From Polytrichum commune (taxonomy: Eukaryota > Streptophyta > Polytrichopsida > Polytrichales > Polytrichaceae): a DNA stretch of 64,000 nt. How positions within the stretch are numbered: the first letter of the stretch is position 1; the number at the start of each line of letters is the position of its first letter. The stretch lies in the NCBI GenBank assembly GCA_950295325.1, contig OX485803.1, positions 58,915,554 to 58,979,553 of the forward strand, given 5' to 3'. The notes under the pieces are model-generated. The model ran no database searches. It saw only the letters and a program-made list of their open reading frames with translations, and was not told the DNA's origin. Positions 797 to 42,204 of the stretch are shown here, one piece after another. A program made the position numbers and the translations under genes.

Positions 797-3700
797 ATGC
801 CTAACCGCAGCCACAAGAAGCATGGGAGCAAGAAGCACCAGCCAGCGAGTCCAAGTTCTCGCCCGGATGTTGAGCTCACAGGAAGTGGTGACCTTGGGGG
901 TTTGGAGGATCTGAACAAGTCCGATCTTGATTCACCGACCCACGAAACGAATGGAGCTTTCAGAGATGGCTCTCTATCTCCTCGAGTCACCCCTCCTCGT
1001 GCATCAGGTGTGTGGGTGGTCTTTCACACGCCTTCAAATGTGGGCATGTGTGTCTATCTACACCTTTGTTAAGTGAGCTCCTCGTGAGACATATTTTATT
1101 GTCTTTCTTAATGGTTGAAGAAGTTGAGAACTCTCTGGGGTTAATTTGTAATCACGAAATGTCAACCATTCATCGTGACCACATGGAGATTACTAGGCCA
1201 TTGCATGCCATGAGCCAGGTCTCAAGCGTCCAGGCTTTTCCGGCTATCTCCTCATTTGCATTTCTTAATCTCTATCATTACCTCAATATGAATTGCCAGT
1301 TAAGATTCTACGTGGCACATTTTTTCAAGTGACACCTGTGGGTGGTGTTTTTCACGCCTTCAAATGTAGCCGTGTGTATTTATCTACACCGGTGGTTGAG
1401 CTCCTCTTGAGACATATCGTATTGTCTTTAACAACTTGGGATTCGCTTAGGTTAATTGTTCTTCAGAAAATGTTAACCCTTAAGCCACTAAGAGGCCCAG
1501 CCTGGGCCTCGTCAAGCACAAAAGCATGTATTTGAGCCACATACTTCCACTTTAGCCAATTGTGTCAAAAGTGACTCATCCTAAAATTATCCCACTCTTC
1601 AAGTGCAATTTACAAATCGGATGTATACCTTAACGATACTGAAGTTTTGGGCTCAAATACACAGCCTGGGTGACCTTGGATACAAATACATACTTCGTAT
1701 TTCGATTATCAATATCACAAATAAGTACTTCTAAGTATCTCCTTGACATAAGATAACATACTGAATAAAGTTTCAAACCATTAGAATAAGACTTGGTAGG
1801 GCTCGTAGAAATTATGTATATATGTCGTACATTGAGCCCTCGCATCTTTTAAGGGTTAATCGCTGATCATGACGCCATAGAAATTACTAGGCCCATTGCC
1901 TGCCATGAGTCAGGTCTCAAGAGCTCAGGCGTTTCTGGCTATCTTCTCATTTCCATATCTAAGTCCTGATCAGGACCTCAATGTAAATTCCCTCATGCGC
2001 TTCTACAGGGGCGACCTGGGAGACAGGTTGTGTAATCCTTAGCAGTGTCAGCAATTAGCATGTTCTTGAATAAATTCGAGAATGGTTTCCCTGTTATTGG
2101 TTAAAGAAGTATGATTATTGCAGACTTGGGAGGATATTTGCTTGTATCCTAAGATTCCACTACCTTGGTGGAGAGGAAATTGAACTATCTTGTTCAGTTT
2201 GCAAGGTTGGTAGTGTTGGCAGGTATGCCTATTGGAGAGAATTGTGCTTACGAGTGGTATTGCATTGCAGAGAAACTTTCAGCTTCACCTGGACGTAAAG
2301 GGTCAGGTGAATACATGGAGCCTCTGCACATGTCATCCTCCACCCCTGAGGATCCTAGAGTTGCAACTCTTCATGATTTGAATGATAAATTGGTGAGGCA
2401 AGTTTCAAGTCTGCGTACCGAAAAAGAGAACCTTAAATCACAGGTGGTGCAATTAGAGGGGGAGCTCACTGCTGTAAGCTACTCAACTTTCACTCGAGTA
2501 CATGATTTTTTGAATGGCTTGTTCGTATGGTATGCACTTTCAGAGAATTTAGAAGTGTCTAAATTCCATGAGTCATTTTTTTGTGTTCTCACAATAGGCT
2601 AGTGGGGACAAGATATGCATACCCTGTGGAACCAAGGAGATGCAAATTTGTTGTGCAGGCTAAAGATGCACATACGCAGATTCAGAGAGAGCTGGCCAAC
2701 CCTACCAGTGAAGTCATAAATGGGCATGGTTCAGAAGTAGAGTTTCTGGCATTGAAGGAGTTTGCTTCAACTGTCAGTAATGAGAAGGCTGCACTGGTTG
2801 AGGAGAGGAAGAGCCTAATTTCTGACAAAGCAAAGCTTGAAGATGTTGTGTTCAAGTCAAGGCAGCAACTTCAGGAGGCTGAGAGGTATGGAAAGGCTGC
2901 CAATGAAAGGTTGAGTAATCTGGAGAATGAGATTGAATTGCTCACAAGCAAGAACAAAGAGCTTGCTGATAAACAAATTGCAGAGGATGAATTTCTGTCC
3001 TTAAAGGACAAGTCCTCGAGACTTGGTCAGGAGAAATCTGCCTTAGTTGAAGAAAGAAACTCTCTTCTCTCAGACAAGACCAGTCTGGAGGATCTCTTGT
3101 CAAGGGCTGGAAAGGAGCGAGAGGAAGCAGAGAAATTCGCTGCAGCTGTCAAGGAAAGGGTGGAGACTCTGGAGAAAGAGGTAGAGTCTCTGACGAGTGA
3201 GAACAAAGAACTCACTAGTACTCAGATATCAGAAAAAGAATTTTTGTTGTTCAAGGAGAATGCGTCAAAGTTGAGCTTTGAGAAACAATCATGGATGAAA
3301 GAAAAAGAAGCACTCATGAAGGAGAAGATGAGCATGGAAGTGGAACTGAAAAAGTGCAAACAGGAGCTGGAGGGAGCTGAGCAGCATTATCATTCTGCTA
3401 AGAAGAGGGTGGAGAGCTTAGAGAAAGAGAATGATTCACTTTCAAGTGCAAATAAGGAACTGACGGAGTCGCAGATCTTGGAAGAAGAGTTTTCATCAGT
3501 AAAGGAAACTGCAGCAAGGCTGAGTTCTGAGAATGATACTTTGGTTGAGGAGAAGCAGTCTCTAGTTTCCAAGAATAGTGACTTGGAGACTGCTGTGGAG
3601 AAGTCCAGGCAGGAGGTTGAGGAAGCAGGGAAATTATATGTGGCTTCGAAAGAGAGAATGGAAAGTCTGAAGAAGGAGATGGAATCTTTGTCATCAAAGC

Positions 3701-5376
3701 TGATGCAAGAGAAGGCTAATCTGGAGAATGAGAAGAGCATTCTACTATCTGAGAAGGAGAAATTGGAAGAAGATGTGACCAAGTTGCGACAGGTAGTTGA
3801 GGAAGCTGAAAAGTCTGCCTCGAGTGCCCAAGAGAGAATGGCTGGATTGGAGAAAGAATTAGAGAGGATCAATGGGGATCTTTCAAGTGCCAAAAAGGTT
3901 GGTGGTCTCAAAGAGTTACAAATGCTTTTGAATTTTTCTGGACATATGCAGCATGAAGTTAACATCAAATACAGCCTATTTTACTTGTGCAGCAAATTTT
4001 GAATAAAACCCATGAAATGCATAAGGTAAAGTCTGGTAAGAGGCATGCTGTAAGAGACAGTGAGTATTCTAGAAAATATATCTTTACGTGATCCTGAAAT
4101 GAATGTGCACTAAGTGGTCATGATTGGTTATTGGGTCCAGTCAATTGAGGAGCTTGAGGCCGAGAAAGAGATGGCAAAGCAATCGAACACCAGATTAGAA
4201 GCTGCGTTGGCAGAGGAACACTCAATGAGAGAAGCATTGGTTGCTGAGAAGGAGGAACTCAACAATAAGTTCAGGGAGTTGCAGAATCACATATCAGTCA
4301 TGAAGGATGAACTGCATGTCTCGAAATTGGATGCAGTGAAGTTGGGTGAAACACTTGATAGTAAGAGTCGGGAATTTGATGCAACAGTGGAGTCTCACAA
4401 GAGCACATTTTCCAAATTGCAAGAGGAGCTAGATGTGGTGAACATCAGAGCTGCAGAGCTTGCCGAAAATCTTGAGAGAGAGATACAAGTGCGGGAGTTG
4501 ATAGAGGAGGAATCGGCTGAGAAGTTGGACAGCCTGGAGGTCACTATCATTGGATTACGAGATGAAGTAAAACGGGCAAGGAATGATACCGCTGGTGCTA
4601 CTGAAATGCTCGACACCAGGACCAGAGAATCCAGCAAGAAGATCAAGAAGCTTGAGGCCACTGTACAGAATTTACAAGATGAACTAAAACATGCAAGGAG
4701 TGACGCAATTGGTGCTTCTGAAATGCTCGAGACCAGGACCAGGGAATCCAACAAGAAGATCAAGGATCTTGAAGACACTGTACAGAACTTGCAAGATCAA
4801 CTAAAACATGCAAGGAGTGATGCATCCGGTGCGTCTGACATGCTTGAGACCAGGACGAGAGAATTCAGCGAGAAGATCAAGGAGCTTGAGGCAACTGTAC
4901 AGAACTTGCAAGATGAACTAATACATGCAAGGAATGATGCAACCGGTGCTTCTGAAATTCTCGAGACCAGGACCAGAGAATTCAACACACAGATCAAGGA
5001 TCTTGAGGCTACTGTACTGAGTTTGCAAGATGAATTAAAACATGCAAGGAGTGATGCAGCTCTTTCTTCTGAAATGCTCGAGAGGAGGACTAAGGAATTC
5101 AGCACACAGATCAAGGATCTTGAGGCCACTGTACAGAACTTGCAAAATAAGTTGAGAACAGCAACAAGCAAAGTGGATGAAGTGGAAGAGAAGTTGAGTA
5201 TTCAAACCAGAGAGTTTGCTGAAAAGACACAGGAACATGAAGCAGATCTGTTGAACTTGCAACGGGAGCTGGATGCTACAAAGTCCAGAGAAGCTGAAAT
5301 TTCCATGTCAAACTCAAAGTCAACTTATTCACAGTTAATTTTTAAATTCATCTCCAGTTGCTCCAACAACCCTTAA
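797..5376 (+). CDS. Gene A: long coiled-coil protein, diverged tandem copy of gene B without membrane anchor
   Basis: Four coding exons read together: 797-1007, 2271-2473, 2659-3897, 4141-5376 (962 residues, stop at 5374-5376). Every junction is GT-AG, and positions and phases (1, 0, 0) match gene B. The start was chosen because both copies have GATAAAATGCC with an Asn/His/Lys-rich N-terminus. Residues 1-70 are polar and low in complexity. Residues 71-138 hold a motif shared with B (LHDLNDKL, then SLRTE). Residues 139-551 are coiled coil in 83-residue repeats, and 697-930 are six 39-residue repeats. Similarity to B stops near residue 937; a 25-residue unrelated tail follows, and no membrane span is visible. 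Divergence from B is large (roughly 60% identity in exon 2 by eye), yet the frame is open throughout, which suggests selection. It is probably a cytosolic scaffold or tether-like protein. The exact function is not recognised, and the last exon could have been lost or could be spliced differently. Confidence 0.8.
1008..1432 (+). repeat. Local duplication inside intron 1 of gene A
   Basis: About 100 bases at 1008-1110 recur at 1333-1432: 'cacgccttcaaatgt', 'tatctacacc' and 'gagctcctc' occur in the same order. A following block at about 1150-1290 recurs at about 1865-1990 ('attactaggccc', 'gccatgag', 'caggtctcaag'). The intron was therefore lengthened by duplication and then by the insertion at 1477-1855. 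This explains why intron 1 is 1263 bases here and 764 bases in gene B. Confidence 0.7.
1477..1855. mobile_element. TTAA-flanked miniature element (possibly piggyBac-like) in intron 1 of gene A
   Basis: The ends are CCCTTAA... and ...TTAAGGG, and TTAA lies directly outside on both sides (1473-1476 and 1856-1859). The duplicated, uninterrupted intron block near 1160 shows the empty-site context ('aaatgtcaacc' running straight into 'attcatcgtgac'). A TTAA target duplication and termini starting with CCC are the known signature of piggyBac-type elements. The terminal repeat is only about 7-8 bases, so the family assignment is tentative. No coding capacity is visible. Confidence 0.45.
2734..3729 (+). 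repeat. 249-bp (83-residue) coding repeat, four units, gene A exon 3
   Basis: Units begin at 2734, 2983, 3232 and 3481, exactly 249 bases apart. Each encodes a module that opens with an acidic-F-x-x-(L/F/V)-K-(E/D) motif, continues with a VEE(R/K)xSL-like segment and ends with a NKEL segment. A degenerate fifth stretch runs to the exon end at 3897. Gene B has the same module order, so the repeat is older than the gene duplication. Confidence 0.9.
4576..5277 (+). repeat. 117-bp (39-residue) coding repeat, six units, gene A exon 4
   Basis: Units begin at 4576, 4693, 4810, 4927, 5044 and 5161, exactly 117 bases apart. Each starts with A(R/T)xD-like residues, then a MLxTRTRE-like core and LEATVQNLQDEL. 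The first five are very similar to one another, while the sixth matches the second unit of gene B. Gene B has two units here (40917-41150), so gene A gained about four. Thirty-nine residues equal four heptads plus one hendecad, so the hydrophobic stripe can continue across unit borders. Confidence 0.92.
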
Positions 5377-7233
5377 TCTGGCTTTAGGGGTTTGTGGGCA
5401 TAACAAGAAACGCATCTAGCGTTTACGTTTTTGACTTGTAATTAATAGAATTGCCAGTGGCTGAATCAAACTTGGCAACATAGAAACTATACTCAAGCCA
5501 TACTTATTCGTGCAATTTGGGCGAAGATCTTGTGATAAGCCATTGTTGAAAAGCTTGAATGTCAGTTTCCTAGCTAGAATCTTTTCCTTTCGTTATATAA
5601 ACTCTGTACAATGACTTTTGATATCAAGGGATGGAGGTAGCATTTGCATGGTTTCCACATCGACATCCATTTCCAAGTAAAGTTAGCAAGTTACAAAGTG
5701 AATGTCCAGGACTGCCACCTTAGCTTAGTGACATTGAACAACCCTACGTGGGCAAGACTGATGTAAAAACACTCTGTTAACAAGATTTGAGAGATGTGCT
5801 AGAGCTTTGTCAAGTGTATGAACCATCAATCATCTATTTGAGTTGTGCACAGTAAGTGGATATGAAGTTAAATTACCTTTGATGTGCACAGACTATGGAC
5901 ATTCCTCAAAAGGCTTCCATTCAAAACTGGAGATGTAATCTGGAAACCTCTGGTATAGAGCTGCCCTTCGCGAAGGTTGGACATTTACCTGTAACAATTC
6001 ACGTGCACACGAGGCTGGTGTTCTCTTCTACACTGCAATAAACGCAGCTGAGCAGGAATCCACAAACTAGCAAACTAACAAACTGTCAAACTTTTCATAT
6101 CGAGAAACATTCCAAGTAATGAGATCCACTTATAGGCAGGACCAAGTCGAGCCACCCTCTCTCTGGCCATGGCTCGTCATAGCAACCCCGCTTAACATGT
6201 CCGCAACGCTAACCCTAGATCGAGAACCTTGTAACGCATATAAGAGAAGACAAAAAAGAAAAAAGAAAAAAAATCGTTTTGATGCAATGATAGATTATAA
6301 TCCATTCGGTCGAAGTCCCTCAACACGTCCCTCAATCACCGATCCGTGGTCAATGCAAGCCAAGTAAACAGAACTTCACAGACACCTTCATTAGGTTTCG
6401 TGCATTTAGGGCAGAGTCGACCATCCAAATTGTCTGGCTCTCAAGGTGCCGGATCTTAGAGCCTGCATTGCACCTCATCTGCTATTACCTAAAAGAGACC
6501 TGGAGTAGGTACGGCAGCTCAAGCAGATGCCCTTTGAAAAAATCATGACACAAGACGTTGTAAGTTTGCATTTTCTGGAAGACACACATTGACTCATCTG
6601 TCTTGCTACCAGAGTGATCGATCCACAACCAGAAGGAAACCAAACCCAATCACAACCTCGAGGCCACAAGAAGATCCAGTGGGGATCAGGAACATGAGTC
6701 CCGGCTTGGAGTAAGCTTCGAGGCCAAAAGATCAGCCAATGTAACTTGCAGAGCTAAGGTTTTCTCCAAGTGTATGATTTTTTCGTAACTGGTTGTGAAA
6801 GGCCACACCATTTATCCAATTTCCTGAATCTAGTGTCCCACAAAATAAGTTGCACTCAAGGGGCACATCAGTATATGTATGTACGACACGTGAACGGAAG
6901 TGTAGACTCAGCTAAACCAAATGCTGACGCAACTTGGATGTGGAAATTTGAGGCCACCACCAACTTTCTGTACAAATTGTACGAGCTCGCAGTGATCACA
7001 AAGGCAGTAACTTTGTTGTTGTTGTTCCCGTACAGTCGTCTTGGAATTGTGTGCTTCGATGTTTTTTTATGGTTTTGGAAAAGGGGTTTCATCCGAGTCA
7101 GTTTAGTACGACTTGGGTAATTATTTTATGGCAGGCATGGGCCTGGCAGGTATGGAATATAGATCGGTAGTCTGGACAGAGTTGTCAGACCAGTTTCTCA
7201 AACACAGTCAGGGATCATCCAGGAATTGCGGAA
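5377..7233. other. Region after gene A; no gene or clear element seen
   Basis: I see only short unsupported frames. A TATATAAA-like word occurs near 5595 and an A-rich stretch near 6250-6275. The membrane-anchor exon of gene B (41801-42204) has no recognisable counterpart here. Part of this may be the 3' untranslated region of gene A. Confidence 0.5.
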
Positions 7234-7835
7234 CAGTGTCTGGGGAGGATTTTGGGCATAAGCGATCGAGAGCCTTGTGTTTCCAAGTCCAACCGGTTAC
7301 ATGTTGACATCTTTCGGTTCTCCTTCAATAATTTGAGGTATAATCTCCAAACTCCTTTTAAATGATCGGTAATTTTCCTAAAGTCTTGAACTTCAACCGG
7401 TTATCCTCAAACTCATCGGGTTCATATGGAACTACACTAAATATGAAATTTAGTGTCACCAAATTCTAATTGTTTTGCTCAATACTAATTGTAAACCACA
7501 GTATAGTACCACCAACACTTCATGTTCACCAAACATTATTTGTCATTCCTTGTAAAAACAATTTGGGGGATTATTGTTTCACGGTGTTCCAATGACCACC
7601 ACTTACCAAGTGACTTTTCATACAAATTTCAATCACCCATGACAAAATTTCATTACAAGTTGCTGACAAGAGAAGGTAGCATTTTGGGCAATAAATGAAC
7701 TCGTCAATCATCCATGAGAGTATTTGTTCACCTTTTCATAAGAAGTGTCATCTGAAAAGTTACCGTAGTCACATAAAATACCATATGACACTGACTGTCA
7801 TATTTAGTGTAGCTGTCCGTTCTCCCTGTTCATTG
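7234..7835 (+). mobile_element. hAT-type MITE, family C copy 1 (with a nested MITE)
   Basis: It starts with CAGTGTCTGGGGAGG, contains the family words 'tccaaccggttac' and 'gttgacatcttt', and is split at 7433-7811 by a TA-flanked MITE. After that MITE it resumes with 'gctgtccgttctccctg'. Imperfect 8-base flanks (ttgcggaa / ctgcagaa) are consistent with hAT. The boundaries are set by comparison with the clean copy at 25503-25728. Confidence 0.65.
7433..7811 (-). mobile_element. TA-flanked MITE, family E copy, nested in a hAT MITE
   Basis: Terminal repeats read TACACTAAATAT... and ...ATTTAGTGTA. The inner sequence matches, in reverse, the copies at 35156, 45571 and 55085 (for example 'caatactaattgtaaacc' and 'ttcatccattggcc'-type words). 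The host hAT family reads 'gcaactaac' when uninterrupted, so the duplicated target is TA, as in Tc1/mariner-type (Stowaway-like) elements. Confidence 0.75.
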
Positions 7836-7965
7836 CTGCAGAACTGTTGAGTTAAGTGCCCAGGCTTCTGATATTTGTAGGTCCAACTACATGGTGCTCT
7901 CCCATCTCAAAGATATCTGGCATGCAATTTTCCAGACCTCCATGGCACAAGTCTCTAACGAATAT

Positions 7966-7989
7966 GAGAGAGAGAGAGAGAGAGAGAGA
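7966..7989 (+). repeat. (GA)n microsatellite
   Basis: About 12 dinucleotide units are seen. Confidence 0.95.
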
Positions 7990-8074
7990 ATATGAGCGTA
8001 CCAGTGTTGGTCTGGCATTGTCTTCTTTTGTTTTACCATTCAGGTATCTGTAAAGAGGGTTTCGTGTTGTTTGA

Positions 8075-8428
8075 TACTAGTACTAGGTTTATGCTATTAA
8101 TTTGCAAAGGGCCTCACCTAGATGCCTAACGGTTTAGTAATGTCACGTCTGCTACTTGTCAACATGACACTATTTGTCATTCTAACTTTTTGAAATGCAA
8201 ACTATTTACATTAAAACATTGAGCGTAGCACATTGGGGTGTTTGAGATGATTAATTTTGTGCTACAAAAATGTACTATCAAACATGCAAATGACAAGTGT
8301 CATGTAGTTACACTAACGTTCAACTAATTGTTGGTTATTAGAGTGACCTAAGATAGGTCTCATAATTGTAGGGTGTGTGACACTATTGGTTAGGTGACAC
8401 TAAATACCATAAATAATGTAGTGTGTGG
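8075..8428 (-). mobile_element. TA/MITE family with GGTATTTAGTGTCA end, reverse copy
   Basis: In reverse it matches the full element at 44324-44922. The right end reads 'gtgacactaaataccataaa', and 'tttgcaaagggcctcac' corresponds to the segment near 44880. The left terminal repeat is too worn to place exactly. Confidence 0.6.
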
Positions 8429-8454
8429 ATATTTGATGGTATTCTTTTTGGGGG

Positions 8455-8705
8455 GGGGATATGTACCATTCAGGTCTATATACCGTGCAAACACCTTCAT
8501 GCTTAGGCAAACTCACCCTTGTATCAATATGATTTAAAATGGTAATTACAATATTTAAAGACTTTCTCACCTTGACATACCCCCAAAAATCGATTGTAAA
8601 TCACAATTGTCATACCCACATATAGGTTCTTTGATATTGTCAGTGGCGTTGATTATTGATACCATACATTCACTTATGTACCAAACCAATATTATCACGT
8701 ACCTC
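8455..8705 (+). repeat. Dispersed repeat, family I copy 1
   Basis: It matches 53475-53740: shared words include 'gtatcaatatgattt', 'tctcaccttga' and 'taggttctttgata'. No terminal repeats could be placed, and the type is unknown. Confidence 0.6.
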
Positions 8706-10159
8706 TCATCCATCCAACATAAAAACTTGGATCTCTATAGGTTTGTGATGGAGTCGTCTCAAATGACTTGTACTATCAACTAACAGTACTAACCTCCGGA
8801 CTACATACTATTCTAGGACTTTTATGTTGGATAAATGTGAGGTATGTTTGTACATGAGTTTGAATTCCATCACTCCCAAATACTCGTGTCCAAATTTGTA
8901 AAGGCTCGTATTTTTAGTATTCGATTCAATGCCCCAAGGGGGGGGGACTCTTCATTGGAAACCTAAATAACGTGCTTGATCATTATGAAATTAAACCCCC
9001 TATATATGAGAACTTTGTAGAGAAAAACAAATGTATACTTACTAATGGCATACTAGAAAATGGACTCATGCATTTATACTAAGCTTTTTAATTTAATGTG
9101 ATAAATACCTCCACTACATATACAAAATATAAATCATAAATTAAATAAGCCTTTAATACACATAAAATTCACTTTCACTTTCCACTGAGAAAGTCATTAA
9201 ATGCTTTTCATCCATTGCGCGTAACTCAACGATTGTATCAAACAAACAAAGACAAGAGCATAATAAGTTAGCCACAATCTAGAGAGAAAATATCAAGGAA
9301 TCCCATGAGTGCTCCAATAGCCTCTTGTATGTAAATTCTAAAAACCTAGAACCCAAATGAAAACCCTAACAAGAACACACGGTAGTCATTAAGGACTATG
9401 ACCATATGACAACAATAGATGAATGTGAATTGGATGAAACTAACACTTATATTCTCAAAAAAAATCTCTAAACTTTAGGGCCCCTTTTTGTACATCTACC
9501 TTTACTTGAAAAAAAATCCAATAGCCTTTAAAAAATGTACACACTAGAGAAATTTAATACCTCTCCCTTATCTACACTATGTATGCTAATGCCTCAGAGA
9601 GAAGAAACGTTGACCCTACGATCAGCGTGAAATGGGTTTAGGGGTTTAGGGGTTTAGTATGCTATTGCCTCAAATAATGCCCCTTCTTACACTCACATGA
9701 GTTTGCACATGGTATGAAGAGTCCACCCCCTGGGTTCAATGCCCACTCCAATAGCAACTTAATTTGTAAGTTGTGTAGCTCACAAAATAGCTATGTAACT
9801 ACAATACATTCTTGCAGATCCTTGGGTAGTCTAATTCAATTTGTGTTTGATCAACTTTGAAACTCCATTTCCCAACTAATTACAGCAATAAGGCATGAGC
9901 TTGCGACTATGATCAAGGTGAAGCATCCCTCGTTCACATTAACCCTGGAGGCTAGTGTCGTCTCTCTCTCTCCAAAAACAAGGCCATAATTCCATGCAAG
10001 TAATAACTCACATGCAAAACGCAAACTTGATGTTACCACAAACATACTATATTTGTCTAATATTGCTTTTGTTTCACACACCTCAGTGGGAGTGAACTTG
10101 AAATAATCAGCTGACTTGCGGCACGGGAGAGACACAGGCTTGTCTAAAGGGGTCACTAA
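8706..10159. other. Gap without a recognised gene
   Basis: AT-rich sequence with poly-G and poly-A runs. Only the telomere-like run at 9634 stands out. Short frames on both strands lack family resemblance. Confidence 0.5.
9634..9657 (+). repeat. Short interstitial telomere-like run (TTTAGGGG)
   Basis: Three consecutive TTTAGGGG-like units are present. The usual plant telomere unit is TTTAGGG; this run is one G longer per unit and very short. Confidence 0.7.
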
Positions 10160-10659
10160 GGGCCACTCTACACACAAGACTGAGAGCCCGTGACCATTAC
10201 ACTTCAAGCACTCTCATTGGTGGAAAAGGCGGAGCCGGTCCAAGTTCGCTACTTTACGCTTGAGGGACCAACGGAGTATGTGGCTGCAAGATGGATGTAA
10301 AGTCTACATGGATTCCTACATGGCATCGAATGGATCATGTTTCATGGTCACTTGGACTATTTTCAAAAAACCGCCTCTTGGAGGTAGGCCTAACACAAAA
10401 GCGGGAGACCATGGCACTCTGAGCACTCAAATTCCGTTGATTTATTTTATTTTATCATGTGTGAGGAACCCACATGAATATAAATTCATCGAAATAGCAG
10501 TTGGTTGAGGGCCTAGTCACGGATGACTTCACACTACACTTGAGGATCCGTGACCAGACTACATGCTTTTGGAGGTGTCTTGGGATGGCCTTAAGACACT
10601 CTCTTTTGGGCTCTCACAAGTTCATGGTCATGGTTGTTGGCTCGTGTGTGAAGTGGCCC
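10160..10659 (+). mobile_element. PIF/Harbinger-type MITE, GGGCCACTTCACAC family, copy 1
   Basis: The left end is GGGCCACTCTACACAC and the right end GTGTGTGAAGTGGCCC, flanked by TAA (10157-10159 and 10660-10662). A 3-base TAA/TTA duplication and GGGCC-type ends are characteristic of PIF/Harbinger. There is no transposase frame. A related copy lies in opposite orientation 225 bases downstream. Confidence 0.85.
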
Positions 10660-10884
10660 TAATGTATGTACAAACTACTATAGATTTTTGTGTTCAAAAT
10701 AAATACATAAAGCATGGTACATTCTAAAAGATATTGACCACTTCAGGGAGGGTGTTCGTGATAGGTGCTTCTACTTTACAGATAGCGTACTGGAGATATT
10801 TTGTTGAAATCGGCCAGTGAATGTTTTAGTATCAAACAAGTGAAGTGGCTTCTTCTAAACAAAATGCATAGCTCGTACACATCA

Positions 10885-11537
10885 GGGCCACTTCACACAT
10901 GAGCCAAGAGCCGTGACCATGAAATTGTGAGAGCCCAAAAGAAAGTGTTCCAAGGCCGTCCCAACACACCCCCAAAGTCCTGAAGTTTGGTCACGGGCCC
11001 TCAAGTGGAGTGTGAAGTCATATGTGGCCGCGCCCTCAACCATATGCTATTTCAATGAATGTCAATTCATGTGGGTCTTCACATATGATAAAATAGAATA
11101 AATCAACGGATGTGAGTGTTCAGAGTGCCATTGTCTTCCAGTTTTGTGTTAGGCCTATCTCCAAGAGGTGGTTTTAGAAAAGAGTCCAAGTGACCATGAA
11201 ACATGATCCATTCGATGCCATGTAGGAATCCATGTAGATTTTACATCCATCTTGCATGCACATACTCCGTTGGTCCCTCAAGCGTATTGTGAAGCGAACT
11301 TGGACCGGCTCCGCCTTTTCCACCAATGAGAGTGCTTGAAGTGCAATGGTCGCAGTCTCTCATGCCCCGATCACACCAAACTTTCCCTCTGGTTCCAAAT
11401 GTGAAATTGTTGGGGAGTATGTTCAAAAATAGATATTGGCGCACCATTTTTCACACTATTACAACTGAAGATGCCAACAAATGATGTCAAAATTGGCCGG
11501 TGTGATCAGCCCCTCAATCTCGTATGTGAAGTGGCCC
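10885..11537 (-). mobile_element. PIF/Harbinger-type MITE, GGGCCACTTCACAC family, copy 2 (inverted)
   Basis: The ends are GGGCCACTTCACACATG and TATGTGAAGTGGCCC, flanked by TCA on both sides (10882-10884 and 11538-11540). Its body is the reverse complement of copy 1; shared words include 'accaatgagagtgcttgaag' and 'gtaggaatccatgtaga'. It is longer because of a 140-base insertion at 11369-11508. Confidence 0.85.
11369..11508. mobile_element. Small TIR insertion nested in the inverted PIF MITE
   Basis: The ends are GATCACACC and GGTGTGATC(A), flanked by 'gcccc' on both sides (11364-11368 and 11509-11513). The segment is absent from copy 1 at the corresponding place. The superfamily is not assigned. 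Confidence 0.6.
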
Positions 11538-21993: not shown

Positions 21994-23343
21994 TACCGTA
22001 CGTTAAGGGCAGCTTCGGCGCTCTCTTGCCGAATAATTATTAAAAGTAAAAAAACAGTGTTCGGCGGCAAAAAAAAAATTACTAAAAATTTCGGCATTTT
22101 AAATAGTTTAATAATGCAATTTCGGCATACATCCAAGAAGTTATTATCTAACAGTAAACAAGGATGTTTATTCACGATTTCACAATTTGTGTGAAGAGTT
22201 TTACAAAAGATATAAATCTTTCACGATTTTGTAAAGAGTTGAGAATGCTCTGTGCTTTATACAAGTAGAGTGGAGTTGTGTTCAACAATGCATATGGGAT
22301 ATGTAAAGTTTGAGGTGAAGCACCTAGTTAGACTTCATTTTTATAACACGCATAACTTTTGCATAGAGTCTTCAAATGACATAAAATTTGTTGGAGGTGA
22401 AAGATTACTTGATTTCTAAACTTTTCTTAGAGCAACAAAATTCCAAAAAAGTTGATCTTCTATGCACAAATGAGCTCCGAAAAACTGTTATGAACGCATT
22501 TTGATTTTTTGATTTTTACACGGCTGCAATGTTTTGTCCATATCTTTCGCATAAAGACTTATTTTGACACAAAACTTGTTGGAGGTGGAAGATTACTTGA
22601 TTTCTAAACTTTTCATAGAGCAACAAAATTCCAAAAAAGTTGATCTTCTATGCACAAATGAGCTCCGAAAAACTGTTATGAACGCATTTTAATTTTTTGA
22701 TCTTTACACGGCTGCAATGTTTTGTCCATATCTTTCGCATAAAGACTTATTTTGACACAAAACTTGTTGGAGGTGGAAGATTACTTGATTTCTAAACTTT
22801 TCATAGAGCAACAAAATTCCAAAAAAGTTGATCTTCTATGCACAAATGAGCTCCGAAAAACTGTTATGAACGCATTTTAATTTTTTGATCTTTACACAGC
22901 TGCAATGTTTTGTCCATATCTTTTGCATAAAGATTTATTTTGACACAAAACTTGTTGGGGGTGGAAGATTACTTGATTTCTCAACTTTTGTTAGTTGGAC
23001 AAAATTCTATAAAACTTCATCTTCTATGCTCAATTGGACTCCAAAAAATTGTGTACAACACATCTGAAAAGCCTCACTTAGAGTCTTGCTACTTCTTAAC
23101 CCATATTCTTTGTGGACTAGTGTAAGTGAGCTTGATTACAAAAGGAGCACCTTCTCTCCATCAGAATTCATATATGCTTCCAGTGTAAGTAAAATTCTAG
23201 TGAGAAGTAAAAATTTCTTACTTTTTGGCAATTTTGAAAATTAATTAATTTTATATTCGGCAAAAAATGTCAATAATTTTCCAAAATTTTCGGCGTCTAT
23301 TTTTAGAATTATTTTGTGCCGAAGCTGCCCTTAAAGTACGGTA
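21994..23343. mobile_element. 1.35-kb TIR element carrying a 188-bp tandem array
   Basis: Ends are inverted repeats: the left has CCGTAC then TTAAGGGCAGCTTCGGC, and the right mirrors this with GCCGAAGCTGCCCTTAA then GTACGG. Subterminal TTCGGC words recur on both sides (left near 22042, 22081 and 22125; right near 23254, 23290 and 23319), the kind of clustered motif that transposases bind. TA lies just outside both ends. There is no transposase, and the superfamily is uncertain (mariner-, CACTA- or MULE-like are all possible). Confidence 0.8.
22333..23084 (+). repeat. Tandem array, 188-bp unit, four copies
   Basis: The phrase 'ggctgcaatgttttgtcc' recurs from 22521, 22709 and 22897 (the last with one change), exactly 188 bases apart, and 'gattacttgatttct' recurs in every unit. 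The first unit (from 22333) and the last are more diverged than the middle two, which are nearly identical. The whole array sits inside the TIR element at 21994-23343. Confidence 0.92.
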
Positions 23344-24608: not shown

Positions 24609-25092
24609 GGGCCACTTCACACTGGCCGAAGGTCGAGAGGCCATTGACTCCCACCAATCAAATTGCAAGAAACCAAGAATTCGGCCTCTCGACCCTTCAC
24701 ACTAGAGGCCAAAGTCCAAAGGTTGTCACGGTTTAAAATGCCTACATGGCAAAACTTTTTAACCAAGGCAACGGACTCTAGAAGGAACTTTGGGTCGGAC
24801 AGGAATGGAGACCCAAACTATGGTTGAGAGGCCATCATTTTTTTTTCATAGAGAATCAAACATTGACAAGATCTTGGCCGTTAGATTGGAGGGGTTGTTT
24901 TGGACAGGGAAGGAAGTGGGATCCTCCTTCTTCCTTTGGACTTTGGAGGCTTCACACTATGCCCAACGGAAAGGCTCCAAGTCCTATATTGTATTGACTA
25001 TTTTCAGCCCATTTCGTTGGACTCTCAGCAAAGTTTGGCCATTCAATCCCCCGACCTCTCGACTTGGACGGCCATGGTGTGAAGCGGTCCTT
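24609..25092. mobile_element. PIF/Harbinger-type MITE (GGGCCACTTCACAC ends), nested
   Basis: The left end is GGGCCACTTCACACTGGCC and the right end GGCCATGGTGTGAAGCGGTCC. TTA lies at 24606-24608 and at 25093-25095. Words such as 'ggtcgagaggcc' and 'cctctcgac' recur inside. It is inserted in the 23793-25944 element. Confidence 0.75.
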
Positions 25093-25095
25093 TTA

Positions 25096-25850
25096 TGCCC
25101 CCTCCCCACATGACTTTAGCTAAGCCTAAAAGTTGGTTATGAAAACACGGCCTTCACACCATCGACATTATCTAGTGCCGAGCCTAGTTGGCAAATGATG
25201 TGGCATGGTTTAAAAGTGGAGATTTTAAGCCTCAAGCACCGACCCTCCCATCGGTACCTAGACATGAGGCAAGAATGTAGGACCTTTAAAAGTGTCGCCT
25301 CCCGCCCTTGTGATTGGTTGCTTTTTAGTCTTAGCTATGAGGGCACGAGGAGCTCTTTTAACAAAAACCGATGATAAGATAGATGAGTAGTAAGGGATTT
25401 GGGGATGGGACAAAAACTATCCTACATTCATTGCTTGGTAGATAAAACCATGAACATGTGTGAAAGCTCCTTAACTAAAACCTACTCAAAAATCTCTGGA
25501 GCTATGTCCGGGAAGAACCGGCAGTTGGTTGCAAATGAACTGGTTGAGTTCGAGAACTAACCAGTTCAAGTTCAAGTCTTCATGAAATTTACCGATCATT
25601 TTAGAAGAATCTATAGAATATACCTCACATGAATAAAGCAAAACCGGAAGATGTCAACATGTAACCGGCTGGATTTAGAATCACTAGGATCTTGACCGAC
25701 TATGCCCAAAACACCTCCCGGGCACTGATCCGGAGCAAGTTCTTGTAGGTGCATTGGGATAGCCAGATGCCTCCCCTATAACCAAAGGAGCTTCACCTAA
25801 TTTTTAAGAAAGACTTTGGTTATTTGGTAAAGTCAGATGGGTAGGGGGCA
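25096..25850. mobile_element. TIR element, TGCCCCCTCCCCAC family, copy 1
   Basis: The left end is TGCCCCCTCCCCACATG and the right end mirrors it (GGGTAGGGGGCA). TTA flanks both sides (25093-25095 and 25851-25853), as for PIF/Harbinger-type elements. It is homologous to 61674-62203 along its whole length, but contains a 226-base hAT MITE at 25503-25728. Confidence 0.85.
25503..25728 (-). mobile_element. hAT-type MITE, family C copy 3
   Basis: This is the cleanest copy. Read on the minus strand it begins (T)CAGTGCCCGGGAGG and ends near CCCGGACATA. Flanks are TCTGGAGC (25495-25502) and TCCGGAGC (25729-25736), an 8-base duplication with one change. The empty site is visible in the related element at 61674-62203 ('aaatctccggagcaag'). 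The insertion is therefore directly demonstrated. Confidence 0.9.
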
Positions 25851-25944
25851 TTAGTGGACTTGACACTTTGAGCTAGCCATCTGAATTAACGTAGGCCCTT
25901 CTTCACAAATAATGTGCGTGACACTATATACCATAAACAGTGTA

Positions 25945-32745: not shown

Positions 32746-32746
32746 A

Positions 32747-32792: not shown

Positions 32793-32796
<4 letters not shown>

Positions 32797-32815
32797 GTGG
32801 CGCAACCTCATTGCA

Positions 32816-34052: not shown

Positions 34053-35155
34053 GAGCACTATTTAGTGTTCGTATTGAGATTTGACTTTCCAACTTTGGTC
34101 GGTTGGGTTAAGTGGGCCCATTTCCGGGATAATTGTATAAACAAATGTTGAAAAAAGGGCCCAAAGGAAAGTGTCGGAATTGGGAAGGAGCTCGAAACAC
34201 CATTTGTTGTTGACTCAATCAACTTGGATGAAAAAAAACTACATGAAGTGGGCACCCATAATCTCTCATCCGTATTGCTCGTCGTTAAATACTAGCGTTT
34301 CCAGACTTTCATCCATAATTTCCGGTTGAGTTAGGGGCTACATTTTAGTGCAACATTTTAGGGCCAGTTACTCTATCATGTGGAAATGAGCCGCCCTTTA
34401 TAAAACCCCATCACCTTCCGGTAACCTGTTACCAACACCCACTTAAAAGCTCATCCTATTTTGAGTGTCGATCATTTTTTTAAAATAAAAATAAAAATAA
34501 AATCATAAGTTAACATTAAATATCATCGATTTTCTAGTCAAGGTGTAGTAAATTATAATGTAAATAAGTTAACACTAAATATCATCCAATATAGATGGAT
34601 ACAATATCCGTGCATCACGGGTGGTCATGTGCTAAGTCATGGTTCAAGGGTTGGGCACATGGCTTGGGCTTCCATAGCTCCGGGCGGTCCTTGAAAGATA
34701 TGGAGTGAAACAATGTAAAGTAAAAAAATGAATGTGACAATGAAACTTTGGTAAAACTTTTGTACCATTGGGGAATACATGCAATGTGTTTATTATATTG
34801 GGGTAAACCATAATCTTGGGTTTATTGCATTATGTAATATGCACGGTGGCTTGCTTTGGTTGTAGCCACTTTGTTGTTGTTGTGTTGTACGGCTGCTCGC
34901 CCAACTGTCTTGCCTCCCCATTGGCTAAAAATAATTGCAGGGCAACAAAAGTTGAGCCATGTGCCCAACCCTTCGGTAATCAAAGACCTTCATCCCACAT
35001 GCTACAATCCACTTGTAGTAGTGAAAACATTGTAAACCGTATAAACTTTTAAATGTATAATTTCTAGTTAAATTGACACTGACTTTCACATTACTCAATA
35101 AAGTAGCCATGGTTATGTTGTTATTATGAACGTATGATACAAGCTTAATACAAGT
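34053..35155. other. Gap without a recognised gene
   Basis: Repeated word 'taacattaaatatcatc' / 'taacactaaatatcatc' near 34510 and 34568. No gene is supported. Confidence 0.4.
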
Positions 35156-35563
35156 GCTATGTTAAATATGATGTTTAGTGTCATGTGACATGTTATGTCA
35201 CAACGGTAACTTTTTTAGTGACACTTTCTATGAATAAGTTTACAAGTACTCTCATTCCAACTTATTTTCAGTTCATCCAAATGCCAATTATTGAGACAAA
35301 ATTGCATCTTAATAGATATATGATAAAATATTTTCGTGGATGATTGAAATTTGGATGAAAAATCACTTAGTAAGCGACAATACTTGCAACACTGTAACTC
35401 TATAATGCCCTTTTTAATTAATTAATCAATCAACATGTTTTTTTACAAGGAATGACAATTACTGTTAGGTTAACATCAGTATTGGTGACACTACACCGCG
35501 GTTTACAATTAGTGTTGAGCAAGACAATTAGAATCGATGACAGTAAATATCATATATAGTGTA
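35156..35563 (+). mobile_element. TA-flanked MITE, family E copy
   Basis: The left end 'aaatatgatgtttagtgtca' is worn; the right end reads 'cagtaaatatcatatatagt'. The body matches 45571-45947 and 55085-55452 ('ggatgattgaaatttggatg', 'ttgagcaagacaatta'). Confidence 0.7.
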
Positions 35564-36237
35564 GTTAGCAAGTGTTAGGCGAAGGAAAAAGAAGCACTTG
35601 ATCCTCTCACGTGGTCGAGCTACCCTACCTCCCTTCTCATATTCAACTTGAGAAGTTCATTTTTCTAACATCCTAGTCTTCGTGAAGATGATCGACAATC
35701 CATGGCAATTGCTTTGCAATCACAATAAATTGCTTTAAGTGATATACTACACGAAAGTGGGGATGATTTCAAGTTTTCTTGGCCCTTATGGGTTGAACTA
35801 CACACGTGTTATAGTGACAATTACAAAAGGAAGCAAGGCTTTGTGACAGGTGCAAATCTCAACCATGTTTCCTCCCCCCCAGATCGAGCTATTTGCTCGA
35901 TCATTTCGATGCATGAACTTGACCTCAGTTTTACCTTACCCCCAAACGCCATTTCACACGCACTAACTACACCTTTCACACCTTATACTGCGATCCACTA
36001 TCAAATTTACATACTGCACTAATTTTGGTCGATGTAACTTTCCTTGAGTCACGTTGACATATGTCCAAACTAGAAATATGGAATCAATGAAATTTTTATG
36101 CATTAATGCAAATTGAAATGTATAGTATCAATATTATACCAAAATATCAACGTTTTGTTAACATTTTACCATTTTAAGGTAATATGTAAGTCTTATGAAT
36201 TCATCATTTTATAAGCCACCCTGGTTTTCAAGCCACA
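35564..36237. other. Gap upstream of gene B
   Basis: No element or gene was recognised. The sequence becomes less AT-rich toward 36300. Confidence 0.4.
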
Positions 36238-36769
36238 CATAATAAAGAGACACTGGACCACAATCTAGAACCCTAATTTAACCCATTGTAACTGTGGGTG
36301 ATAACCTATCACTCCTGAAACAGGACCGAAATAAGCTGCGCTTCGAAACGGTGATGTGCGAGAACGCCGTTATGAAAAGGCGAGGGTCGGAGGGCGAATG
36401 AATGAACCACCACAACATTCATCGAACATAATATCATCCATCGCTACAGTGTCGTCTCTCTCCTTGAGCCTGGCCTCCAAACAAAGAACGCAAATGCGAG
36501 ATTTCTCCTTCTTCGTCCCTCGCCGGTCCCCCCTCCGGTTTGCTCCTCGCCCTTCGTGGTTTGGCCGCCGGACACCACCGCAGGCGCGTCCCTCACTTCG
36601 CAAGCTTTCTATCGGCGTGTCACTTGAACCCTAAGACGTCCTCTAACCTCCTGGAGCTTCATTCGCAAACGCAGGAGCTACCTACGGTTGCTTGAGGAGG
36701 AGAAGGAGGAGGGAGAAAAAGAGCTAAGTTACTAGTCCAAGGGCAAACGAGCTCGGGTCTGCGTGTGCG
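36238..36769 (+). promoter_or_regulatory. Probable promoter and 5' leader exon of gene B
   Basis: Composition shifts to GC-rich with TC-rich stretches (near 36452 and 36497), typical of plant leaders. A candidate splice donor GTGCG|GTACGT lies at 36769/36770. Telo-box-like AACCCTAA words occur at about 36269 and 36627. An ATAATAAA word near 36238 is the only TATA-like candidate. The transcription start cannot be fixed from sequence; a 92-residue frame here (36356-36634) looks like leader, not protein. Confidence 0.4.
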
Positions 36770-37520
36770 GTACGTTATCAAATCTTTGACAACTTCTTGT
36801 TTTTCGTGCGTGTGTGCGTGCCTGGTCCGGTCAGAAGGTGTTGTGGTGTGCTGTTGAATAGGTCTGGGAGTTGAAATGACGCTTATTTTGGAGTTGTGCG
36901 CATTGACGTTGTGTGTGGCATCGCGTTGCGCACTTGTATTTGAGCTGGAGGTCATCGTCCCGTTCATTTCCTTCCTTCTTTCCTTCCTCTGTGGTTTTGT
37001 ATTGTATTGTATTGCAAAAATTGCTTCAAGTGAGGGCCAAGTGTTGTAACTTAGCTACAATGCCTTGGGGCAGATGTAAGCCTCCGCACTGCCTCGTGGC
37101 TTTGCTACTTGTTTGACAGCGATTCTTAAACTCGCCATTTGTTCTCAATCTTGAGATTGTGGCTGATATTTCCCCTTGTGATATGCATCATCATCGTGCT
37201 GTTCATGTGAGTGCGGGTCACTGGAGTCTACTCCTCTGGCCCTCCTCTCTACGTCTTCGTTGTGAGGACTCCGGAAATTCTAGTGGGAGGGAGAGAGACA
37301 GAGAGAGCGAGGAAGAGAGTATTAGAGAGAGAGAGTGGTATGGAGACCTGCTGCTTGGTGATTGCTGCGAAGTGCTGTCGGTGCGTAGTGTGTCTCTTGG
37401 GTCGGAGCTCTTGGCCTGAATTCCCTTGCTTTGTGTGATTTGGAGTTGGAGTTGGAGTTGGAGTTTTCATGTCCTTTTGGGACCAGTCTCAATATCTCAT
37501 GCACATTGTAAAATGTACAG
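36770..37520 (+). other. Probable leader intron of gene B
   Basis: It begins GTACGT and ends TACAG, five bases before the start codon. It contains (TTCC)n-like and GA-rich tracts and a fourfold GGAGTT repeat (37440-37464). Gene A has a corresponding 3' splice site and a related segment, supporting a shared leader intron. Confidence 0.5.
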
Positions 37521-37525
37521 ATAAA

Positions 37526-40500
37526 ATGCCTGGCCACAACAATCACAAGAAGAACCATGGGAACAAGAAGAGCCATTCTGTGAGCCCGAACAATCAACCC
37601 CGGATGACACCGACCGAGCACCCGGATGATTCTGGCAATGGTGAGCTTGTGCTGGAGAATTCGCAGAAGCCCGAGCTCGATATTGCATCTCAAGAAACAA
37701 GCGGAGTCACCAGAGATGGCTCGCTATCTCCACAAGTTATGTCCCCACGTGCTGCAGGTTTGTTTGGTGTTTACCTGACGCGTTCAAATGTTAGGTCGTC
37801 TTGTCAGAGAGGCTTTATTAATAAAGTAGCTTGTATTTGTTTTCATTTTTGTAAGAATTTCTGCAATAGCCATGCTGGTCGAGTCTGTATGAGTTGCTTT
37901 GTTGAGTCTAGCGTGTTTGAATTTGAGATGTTTGTTAATTGGCAGATGCATTGTGTTAACTAAATTCAATTTCTTATTAATGATAGGTTTTTCATTTTGT
38001 GGTCTTTTAAACTTAGCAAGTTCAAATGTAGGTTATCTTGTCAGAGAGTAACTATATCTATGTGAAGTAGCTTTGTTTTGTTTTGATTTTTGTAAGAATT
38101 TGTGCAATAGCAATGCTGATCGTGTCTTTATGAGTTGCTTGTTGAGTAAAGTGTTGAAATTGAGATGTTTGTTGATGGGCAGATGCATTGTGTTAATTAC
38201 ATTCAATTATCTTATCAATAATAGCGATTCTCGCTTTTTGACCTGTCACTTCATATATTTCTTTGACAGATTGTTTTCAGGTAGACATGAATTAGTTGGC
38301 CCTTCATTCACTTGGAATTGTTATTTTTAATCCTTGTCCATGCTTGGACACAGAATGACTGTTGCAGACCTGGAGAGACACAGAGGTGTTTTTTATGTTG
38401 TGGACTCCTTAAACTAGATGGTGTCTAGATTTAATCCTAAGGTGCTATCTACGAAGTTAGACAGTGTTTGCATTGCTCATGTGCAAGAAAGTTTTGCTCA
38501 GAAATGATTTTTGCAATGCAGAGAAACCTCCTGCTTCTCCTAAACACAAAGGGACAAAGGATCGAGTGGATGCTCCGCTAAAAGCAGCATCCCCCACTGA
38601 AGATTCGAGGGTTACTGTTCTTCATGATCTGAACGATAAGTTATTGAAGGAAGTGGCAAGCCTGCGCACAGAGAGAGAAAAACTTACATCAAAGGTTGCA
38701 CAATTGGAGGGGGATCTGACTACTGTAAGATAACACAGCGTGACCTCCATATATGATCTATCGTGTTGTTGATAATCTCCATTCCATATACAGAAGATGT
38801 TTTGTTTCTTGTACTTACCGAAGCTACATCATGCCACCTTTATTGTGTGCAGACCTTGAATGTGCTGGAACATTAGTTTAACTTTTCTGGAGGATGTGAA
38901 TATTCCAAAGCTGTAAAGGACGTGAACGGTCAAATAAGGAACCATCCAGGATTCAGTTGATGCATTTTTAAGTGTCTTGACCTACATAGATTCTTACTCG
39001 AGTTTGCCTTTCATGGCCCATTCTCAATCTGTATTACAGGCCAATGAGACCAGTGAAGATATTCCTAGCCTTGAAGAAGAAAACATTTCAGCAGAAGAGT
39101 TCCTGGCCTTAAAGGAAACTGCTGTTATTGCTAGTAATGAAAAGGCTGCACTGGTCGAGGAGAAGGCAAAGCTTGAAGATGCCATTTCTAAGTCAAGGCA
39201 GGAACTTGAGGAAGCCGAGAAGAGTGCATTGACTGCGCATGAAAAGGTGAGTAACCTGGAGAAAGAGATTGAGTTGCTCAGAACCAAGAACAGAGAGCTT
39301 GCTGACACTCAAATCTCGGAAGATGCCTTTCTGACTTTGAAGGACAACTCCTCAAGGCTGAGTGAGGAGAATTCTGCTCTAGTTGAAGAAAAGAATTCTC
39401 TTCTCTCAGAGAATCACAGTCTGGAGGATCGCTTGTCAAAGACTCAAAGGGAGCTTGACGAAGCTGAGAAATTTGCTGCAGATGTGAAGGAAAGGATGGA
39501 GACTCTGGAGAAAGAGGTTGGAACTCTGACGAGTGAGAACAAAAAATTAATTGATACTCAGATATCAGAAGAAGAATTTTCAGTATTGAAGGAGAATGCA
39601 TCAAAGTTGAGCTCTGAGAAAGAAGCATTGATGGAAGAAAAAGAATCACTCATGAAGGAGAAGATGAGCATAGAAGATGAATTGAAAAAGTCAAGGCAGG
39701 AGTTGGAGGGAGCTGAACAGCATTTCAATTCTGCTAAGGAGAGGGTGGAAAGTCTAGAGAAAGAGATTGAGTTGCTTTCAAGTGCAAACAAAGAGCTGGT
39801 TGAGGCGCAGATCTCAGAAGAGGAGTTTTCATCAGTGAAGGAAACTGCAGCAAGGTTGAGTTCCGAGAATGCTATCTTAGTTGAGGAGAAGCAGTCTCTA
39901 GTCTCCAAGAATGGTGACTTGGAGAATGCTGTGGAGAAGTCCAGGCAGGAGGTCGAGGAAGCAGAGAAATTATTTTTGGAAAGAATGGAAAGTCTGAAGA
40001 AGGAGATGGAATCTTCGTCATCAAAGCTGACGCAAGAGAAGGTTAGTTTGGAGGAGGAGAGGAACCTTCTCCTTTCTGAGAAGGAGAAATTGGAAGTTGC
40101 TGTGACCAAGCTGAGACAGGTAGTTGAAGAATCTGAAGAGTCTGCTGCAGCTGCTCAAGAGAGGATGGTTGGATTGGAGAAAGAATTAGAAAGAATTGAT
40201 GGGGATCTTTCAAGTGCTAAAAAGGTTGGTGGTTTTGATTGAGTTACAGAATGTGTTGGGTTTTATGTGTACATACTCAGTATCTAGCTGATAGCAATGG
40301 AAATACGTAACTTCAGTGAACATTTTCTTGCTGACTTTCATTAGTAAATGCCCTTGTCTCATTGTCTGATTAATAAGGCCTGATATGTGTAAGGAGCTTT
40401 TCAAGTGCCATGCTGAAAGACAGTTTAATTTTTTCTCTTAGTTTTGAAATGGCTGTGAATTAACTGGTTGTGAGTTGTTGTTTTCAACAGTCCATTGAGG

Positions 40501-42204
40501 AGCTTGAGGCTGAGAAAGAAATGTTGAACAGCAGATTGGAAGCTGCATTCACAAGCGAACATTCATTGAGAAAGTCATTAGTGACTGAGAAGGAGGAATA
40601 CAGTAATAAATTGCAGGAATTGGAGAACAGTGTATCAGGTTTGAAAGAGGAGTTACATTTCTCCAAATCAAAAGCAGTTGAGGTTGGTGAGACTCTTGAT
40701 AGAAAGGATCGGGAACTCAGTTCAACTGTGGAGTCTCACAAGAGCCTAGTTTCAGAATTGCAAGAGGAGTTAGGTTTGGTGAATAGCAGAGCCTCTGAGC
40801 TTGCCAAGGATCTGGAGAGGGAGAAAACAGATAGGGGAGTGACCGAAAAGGAATATGTTGAGAAGCTGAAGTGCCTGGAAGGCACTCTCATTGCATTGCA
40901 AGATGAACTAAGAGAGGCGAGGGGTGAAGCGGCTGGTGCTTCTGAGACTCTAGATTCTAGAACTAGAGAATCTAGTGAGAAGGTGAAGGAGCTTGAGGGG
41001 ACTGTACTACATCTGCAAGATGAGTTGAGTGTTGCAAGGAGTAAAGTTGTGGAAGTTGAAGAGATTGTGAGCACCCAGACTCGAGAGTTTGATGAGAAGT
41101 CTCAGAGTAATCAGACAACTGTGTTGAGTTTGCAAAATGAGCTGGATGCTGCACAGTCGAGAGCAGCTGAGGCCATTGAGAGATTACAGGAAGAGAAAGA
41201 AATCTTGCTTCGGCAGGTGAAGGAGCTCGTTGAGAAAGTGGAAAGATTGGAGAGCATGGTCTCAGGATTGGGAAATGAGTTACAAGCTATAAAAAGTGAG
41301 TCAGCAGAGGCTGCACAAAGATTTGAGAAGGAGAAAGAAGGTACTGTCCTCTGTGGTTATATCTTATTTTCATTTGTACACTGTGCTGAGAGCTGATGGA
41401 CACATGTAAGATAGGATGACCCTTTACTATAATGATCACCCTCACAATCTTAGCATCTGCTAGGACATGTTGGATTGTTTTGTCAATGTCCAGGCCATCT
41501 GTGAGTAGAGGTTGTAGGATATTGTGGTTTTTTCCTTCCTTCAATGTGGCTTGGCTTTGCCAGACTTTTCATGTATCTTGTGGATAATTGAACTGGTGGC
41601 TTACATATCATGTTTACAATAAACTATGCATTTGGTTCTCTTTCAAACAGGTTTCTGAGGTCAGTCGCAAATGAAAGGAAGTTGAAGTACCTGGGACTAA
41701 AAATGGTTTTTTTTGGCAAAGTTAAGTAGTTCATGTGAGGATTTTGCTTTCAATAACAAAGAATTTGTCTAAATTTGGTTCATGGAAATTATGTTTGCAG
41801 ATTTGTGCAATCAGATCACAGCTACAAACAGAGAGAAGGAAACTCTTGAGCTGGATCTCACGTCTGCAAGATCATTGGTTCAGAGCTTGCAAGATACAGT
41901 CTCAAGCTCAAAGACTAGCTGTGAGGAACTGCTGACCCAAATAGAAGAATTACAAACTAAAAAGGGCAGTTCAGAGCTGAATGAGTGGCAGTCTCAAGTC
42001 AAGAACCTTGAGACTACCCTGGAGAATGCGAAATCTGAAAGTGAAAAAAAGGCCAAGGATTTGTCCAGAGAGTTGGAGCTAGCAAGAGTCTCATCAGAAA
42101 AGAAGACTGAGATAGCACGATACATTGTGCCAGCTGCAACTGCAACTGGGGCGTTGGCTGCGGCAGGTGTGATGTATATTATCAAGTCAGTCAGCCGCCG
42201 GTAA
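37526..42204 (+). CDS. Gene B: tail-anchored long coiled-coil protein
   Basis: Five coding exons: 37526-37757, 38522-38724, 39040-40224, 40491-41340, 41801-42204 (2874 bases, 957 residues). All introns are GT-AG and every join keeps the frame. Residues 1-77 are polar, rich in Asn/His/Lys then Ser/Pro (TRDGSLSP). Residues 78-145 hold LHDLNDKLLKEVASLRTE. Residues 146-540 are coiled coil in 83-residue repeats; 683-760 are two 39-residue repeats. Residues 931-951 form one hydrophobic span (rich in Ala, Gly, Ile, Val), followed by KSVSRR. A lone C-terminal span with a short basic tail is the layout of tail-anchored proteins of peroxisomes, mitochondria or ER. Plant peroxisomal and mitochondrial division factors (PMD1/PMD2) share this layout, but sequence-level homology is not shown here, so no symbol is given. 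It likely acts as a membrane-bound tether or scaffold. Confidence 0.88.
39094..40065 (+). repeat. 83-residue coding repeats in gene B exon 3
   Basis: Units start at 39094, 39319, 39568 and 39817. The last three are spaced 249 bases; the first is 225 bases, lacking 8 residues in the region that reads VEERKSLISDK in gene A. Module order equals that of gene A. Confidence 0.88.
40917..41150 (+). repeat. Two 39-residue repeats in gene B exon 4
   Basis: Units start at 40917 and 41034, 117 bases apart. The first resembles units 1-5 of gene A and the second resembles gene A's unit 6, so the two-unit state looks ancestral. Confidence 0.88.

Follow-up and report, generated by a model that had tools for sequence, protein, structure and literature searches.

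The nearest described proteins that we found for the genes considered here are two Arabidopsis pairs, PICC and PICL on the one hand and PMD1 and PMD2 on the other. Green fluorescent protein fusions of PICC and PICL without the conserved C-terminal fragment of 31 residues are described as diffuse in the cytoplasm, and the passages of that study dealing with orthologs report them from vascular plants only (PMC3581476). PMD1 has the tail -SKLR, and a PMD2 construct ends in SRRE with the last residue replaced (PMC4154396, PMC13421887); the account of their homologs places these primarily in rosids (PMC13421887). In this work we analyzed a stretch of 64,000 nucleotides from Polytrichum commune (contig OX485803.1, positions 58,915,554 to 58,979,553, forward strand; the window in the following), which contains two duplicated coiled-coil genes, A and B. 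The product of B ends in a hydrophobic span followed by a short basic tail, A has lost this end, and the reading frame of A bears the marks of purifying selection. Our preferred reading, held with moderate confidence, is that B is a rod on the surface of an organelle and that A is a soluble duplicate whose open frame selection has preserved and which can probably still pair with B. The pair is filed in neither of the two Arabidopsis families, the likeness being one of description only.

The exon limits of both genes were re-derived here from the sequence. A extends over 797-5376 and B over 37526-42204 on the same strand, and they encode proteins of 962 residues (four coding exons) and 957 residues (five coding exons), respectively. 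Their parts are as follows.

797-1007, plus strand: A exon 1, 211 nucleotides, phase 1, start codon at 797-799
2271-2473, plus strand: A exon 2, 203 nucleotides, equal in length to B exon 2
2659-3897, plus strand: A exon 3, 1239 nucleotides, coiled-coil rod with repeats of about 83 residues (249 nucleotides)
4141-5376, plus strand: A exon 4 to the stop codon; homology to B ends at 5298
4558-5142, plus strand: five tandem copies of a 117-nucleotide (39-residue) unit, A units 0-4; single counterpart in B
5299-5376, plus strand: run-on of A past the homology break, 25 unrelated codons and the stop codon
37526-37757, plus strand: B exon 1, 232 nucleotides, phase 1
38522-38724, plus strand: B exon 2, 203 nucleotides
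39040-40224, plus strand: B exon 3, rod, 1185 nucleotides
40491-41340, plus strand: B exon 4, rod built of 39-residue units
40899-41015, plus strand: B unit 0, the single counterpart of the five tandem A copies
41801-42204, plus strand: B exon 5, end of the rod, membrane span and KSVSRR tail; A counterpart not found
42124-42201, plus strand: membrane span of B with an approximate start (about residues 932-951) and the tail after it (952-957), placed by codon arithmetic from the stop codon at 42202-42204

All seven inferred introns of the two genes are of the GT-AG type, and the length of exon 3 is divisible by three in both. As an earlier note on this DNA had claimed, the four shared exons have common boundaries in matching phases, and both frames are open over all exons, the single stop of each gene being its last codon. 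Directly before the start codon of A, CAG followed by ATAAAATG reads by eye as a likely acceptor of an intron in the 5' untranslated region, and the same holds for B. Intron 1 of each gene contains an internal duplication of its own, at 1172-1297 and 1866-1992 in A (80% identical) and at 37782-37986 and 38020-38224 in B (83% identical), with different spacing in the two genes.

It is certain that A and B are duplicates, and the earlier note was right to call them so: in addition to the shared exons and phases, 756 aligned codons show 66% identity at the protein and 76% at the DNA level. The DNA match found by BLAST comprises 2015 columns at 75% identity with an expectation value (E) reported as 0.0, far above chance; in exons 1-2 protein identity is 50%. 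The codon total omits A units 1-4 (156 codons lacking a B partner), gap columns, the last 25 codons of A and B beyond residue 767. A global alignment of exon 4 (ratio of nonsynonymous to synonymous divergence, dN/dS, 0.36 overall) mispaired the repeat units, and unit-wise pairing was used instead. Over the 756 codons, dS is 0.68 and dN 0.21, and the differences at codon positions 1, 2 and 3 number 162, 136 and 241. The resulting dN/dS of 0.30 (bootstrap 0.24-0.37; 0.26-0.36 by segment) is not close to 1, the value that the earlier note, in combination with a lack of expression of A, had set against its own proposal. The upstream stretches and the introns of the two genes give short and weak matches only, and the flanks (5299-7228 against 41172-44500) gave no blastn match at E up to 1. 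Because so little similarity is left in the introns, the duplication must be old. Silent divergence is lower in exon 3 (2659-3897 against 39040-40224; dS 0.47) than in exons 1-2 and in either part of exon 4 (0.92-1.04). Gene conversion between the two copies in the past could account for this difference.

The C-terminus of B was then compared with known tail anchors. B ends in a single, moderately hydrophobic span of 20 residues (mean hydropathy 1.76) and the tail KSVSRR. On the Kyte-Doolittle scale its best 19-residue stretch scores 1.61, at residue 933, whereas the best anywhere in A scores 0.63, and 0.17 within the last 32 residues, so that A has no span; the earlier note had described both ends correctly. 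For plant mitochondrial outer-membrane proteins anchored by a dibasic-type tail, a moderately hydrophobic span of fewer than 21 residues is described, followed by a tail of 3-8 residues with two basic residues, no glutamate after them and often a serine before them (PMC4154396). B agrees with this description in its single C-terminal span, in the length and mean hydropathy of the span, in the basic pair of its six-residue tail, after which no glutamate comes, and in the serine that precedes this pair. Judged by these features, B would sit at the surface of an organelle, the mitochondrial outer membrane being the likeliest site and peroxisomes perhaps a further one. The mitochondria of pmd1/2 double mutants are described as wild-type-like (PMC13421887), and a PMD-like location would thus not reveal the function of B. 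A is expected to be soluble because it has no span, PICC and PICL being likewise cytoplasmic without their C-terminal fragment.

The similarity between the genes ends at 5297 by BLAST and at 5298 by codon, 13 codons into A unit 6 and inside exon 4, and the 25 unrelated residues and stop codon that follow end at 5376, just as the earlier note had placed them. B continues for another 190 residues (768-957), which comprise the remainder of exon 4 and exon 5. In 5377-7228 the distance to the next stop averages 20.7 codons and amounts to at least 24 codons for 30% of the starts; the run-on of A thus has an ordinary non-coding length. As to splicing of A to a downstream anchor exon, the other finding that the earlier note had held against its proposal, nothing recognisable as a counterpart of B exon 5 was found in 5377-36500 (best E 0.015 with tblastn and 1.5 with blastn). 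As a control, neutrally evolved copies of exon 5 were planted in the same interval, 25 per distance, and searched for with both programs. One or the other program recovered 25 of 25 copies at distances of 0.2, 0.35 and 0.5, 6 of 25 at 0.7 and none of 25 at 1.0; at the three shorter distances tblastn alone found 25, 23 and 19 and blastn alone 25, 25 and 24. A conserved exon 5 close downstream of A is therefore excluded, whereas a relic left to decay after a very ancient event retains some probability. The break could stem from a tandem duplication with its right end inside exon 4, which would have left the upstream copy truncated at birth and the downstream copy complete, or from a later deletion in A. 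Truncation at birth would match the observed same-orientation arrangement and require one event; a later deletion would require two.

In both genes, exon 4 is built of successive 39-residue units, a feature that the earlier note had missed. The repeat order that it considered shared does agree as far as unit 0 of exon 4; beyond this point it does not, since A has five copies of the unit where B has one, and A units 5-6 correspond to B units 1-2. At the DNA level, identity is 79-86% among the five copies in A and 67-73% between these and the B copy. As the A copies are closer to each other than to the B copy, the unit was expanded, or its copies homogenised, in A after the split. Adjacent A-only units show a dN/dS of 0.44 (bootstrap 0.26-0.67). 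This constraint cannot have been borrowed from B, which argues that A itself was constrained; single pairs among the five copies range from 0.27 to 0.92, and the evidence for constraint is moderate. Past unit 0 the rod measures 208 residues in A (730-937) and 216 in B (716-931). One might imagine that A, born truncated or truncated later, rebuilt its rod through the five-fold unit, selection keeping the length of the rod and giving up the anchor, and that a soluble, length-matched partner arose which competes with or cross-links the anchored organelle rods. We regard this scenario as quite improbable.

The view of the earlier note that both frames have been kept fits purifying selection, as indicated by dN/dS values of 0.30 between the genes and 0.44 for the adjacent A-only units. 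The main rival explanation, which we consider unlikely, holds that the truncation of A is recent and that the gene is turning into a pseudogene, its frame having been kept while the 3' end was present and the gene now being inactive. It draws on the abruptness of the break, 13 codons into a unit, on the ordinary length of the run-on and on the fact that dN/dS averages over the entire history of the genes. However, the 2811 homologous nucleotides of A contain neither a premature stop nor a frameshift. Among random substitutions in A, 4.3% create a stop, and after 120 substitutions in a neutral simulation 0.3% of 300 runs were still free of stops. From stops alone, the 95% bound on neutral change in A is about 69 substitutions (2.5%), compared with a dS of 0.68 between the genes. 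Since so few neutral substitutions can be tolerated, A either still codes or ceased to do so only very recently. Furthermore, had a recent simple insertion caused the break, exon 5 should still be recognisable in the DNA that separates the two genes. It was not seen there, and in the control one program or the other recovered every copy up to a distance of 0.5; a recent deletion remains compatible with this search.

The preferred reading also requires that the two rods can still associate. The hydrophobic heptad signal (period 3.5) is strong in both (z 20.0 in A and 18.3 in B) and does not extend to the N-terminal 140 residues of either protein (z 0.2 for A and 0.7 for B). In exon 3 and early exon 4, identity between A and B is 75-76% at the partner-facing helix positions a, d, e and g compared with 62-64% at the outward positions b, c and f (p 0.0004-0.007 over the six overlapping register settings tried). 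As positions of the interface have been retained, both proteins probably still form coiled coils, and pairing of A with B along exon 3 and the first part of exon 4 is plausible and, as far as these positions tell, probable. A may alternatively be a cytosolic scaffold with a role of its own that has lost the pairing with B. The five-fold unit, which sets the two rods out of step past unit 0, and the low identity in exons 1-2 speak for such a role, and the preferential retention of the a, d, e and g positions, in a grouping chosen post hoc, speaks against it; we rate it as somewhat less likely than recent decay of A. Least convincing, and improbable in our estimate, is that the transcript of A bypasses the run-on by joining exon 4 to an exon far downstream with a different end, perhaps another anchor: the inferred donors of A and B are not strict (e.g. 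GTTGGT, GTACTG) and a weak GT at 5173 or 5334 might serve, but GTAAG- or GTGAG-type donors are absent from 5143 to the stop, nothing in 5377-36500 resembles B exon 5, and a Pfam scan of window frames, described below, gave only weak one-member families, with which a short unrelated exon is still compatible.

Under the preferred reading, B would be a long, tail-anchored coiled-coil protein in which about 140 proline-containing N-terminal residues precede a rod of about 770 residues facing the cytosol, and the single C-terminal span with its short dibasic tail would fix the rod to the organelle surface. A, with the N-terminus and the rod and no anchor, would be cytosolic; most likely it yields a soluble rod able to form A-A and probably also A-B pairs, so that B would be supplied with an unanchored partner. 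Several points weigh against this picture. The dibasic rule is described as derived in Arabidopsis and tobacco cells (PMC4154396) and may not apply here, and a positively charged tail is reported to be able to direct proteins to plastids as well, dual targeting to peroxisomes being known too (PMC8644595). One pair of A-only units (A0/A3) has a dN/dS of 0.92, and the constraint on these units could be older than the truncation. In exon 3, positions a and d alone are not better conserved (87 of 114 compared with 203 of 277, p 0.61), and the p-values for a, d, e and g are optimistic, as the grouping was chosen after e and g had been seen to be high in exon 3 and the same data were reused together with early exon 4. 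Finally, a single-sequence fold of A 4933-5373 gives one helix at a mean predicted local distance difference test score (pLDDT) of 94.8, so that the extra tail of A is predicted as part of a continuous helix and not plainly as disordered scrap. The earlier note had proposed a regulator/tether pair; no result obtained here supports A regulating B or tethering anything, and regulation of B by A is a guess.

Searches for known families added little. With B and with B exon 5, Pfam gave matches below the curated cut-offs only (best Filament, E 0.0037 and 0.00039, respectively), and a PDB search with B exon 5 alone gave a best E of 0.093; its single-sequence fold has a mean pLDDT of 66.6 and shows little beyond helix. 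The window contains 137 frames of at least 70 codons after those starting at 2401-5399 and 38901-41399 had been filtered out. The Pfam scan took 127 of them, leaving out ten that overlap or lie near B exons 1, 2 and 5. It matched six families, all weakly and each through a single member, Anoctamin being the best (E 0.00022); a rescan of 10 of the 127 frames for the source of the Anoctamin match gave none at E 0.01. Rfam gave no match at the gathering threshold, and ARAGORN, run with the bacterial code, none.

The window also contains several repeats. Copies of a putative mobile element of about 545 base pairs with inverted ends (TATGCCCCCTCCCCAC) lie at 25092-25854 and 61670-62207 and are 88% identical; the former contains an insertion of about 226 base pairs of another element with a site duplication of about 8 base pairs, for which the latter represents the empty site. 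The offset of the two copies (36.35-36.58 kb) is near that of the genes and had suggested a 36-kb segmental duplication. This was rejected and the offset taken as coincidence, because the ends are sharp inverted repeats and the copies are 88% identical, compared with a proportion of synonymous differences (pS) of 0.45 in the exons. An element of about 385 base pairs with inverted ends of about 27 base pairs occurs in four copies, 69-82% identical, at 7422-7815, 35163-35567, 45567-45959 and 55084-55456. A long inverted repeat at 10181-10677 and 10869-11362 has arms of about 500 bases, 87% identical, and a spacer of about 190 bases, and at 22377-23052 a 188-base-pair unit is repeated in tandem (3.6 copies, 94% matches).

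If both products are made, A and B offer a natural test of the role of the anchor in a long rod protein, the rod being present with and without it, and the expansion of a tandem unit beside the truncation bears on whether the length of the rod is selected. Otherwise the pair shows what commonly becomes of genes after duplication. Paralog pairs in which one copy has lost its membrane segment are familiar, and from these the present pair differs in that the unanchored A also carries the five-fold 39-residue unit. Among the literature matches listed, no title concerned this gene pair. PMD1 and PMD2 are shorter than B. They resemble it, as described, in being tail-anchored and in having a short dibasic tail that directs them to mitochondria (PMC4154396, PMC13421887). 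PICC and PICL differ from A and B in that both paralogs are described as anchored, at the endoplasmic reticulum (PMC3581476). B shares with them the combination of a long coiled coil, with its heptad z of 18.3, and a C-terminal membrane span, and the two pairs are alike, according to the same account, in the expansion of the rod in one paralog and in the cytosolic location that follows from loss of the C-terminal fragment of PICC and PICL (PMC3581476).
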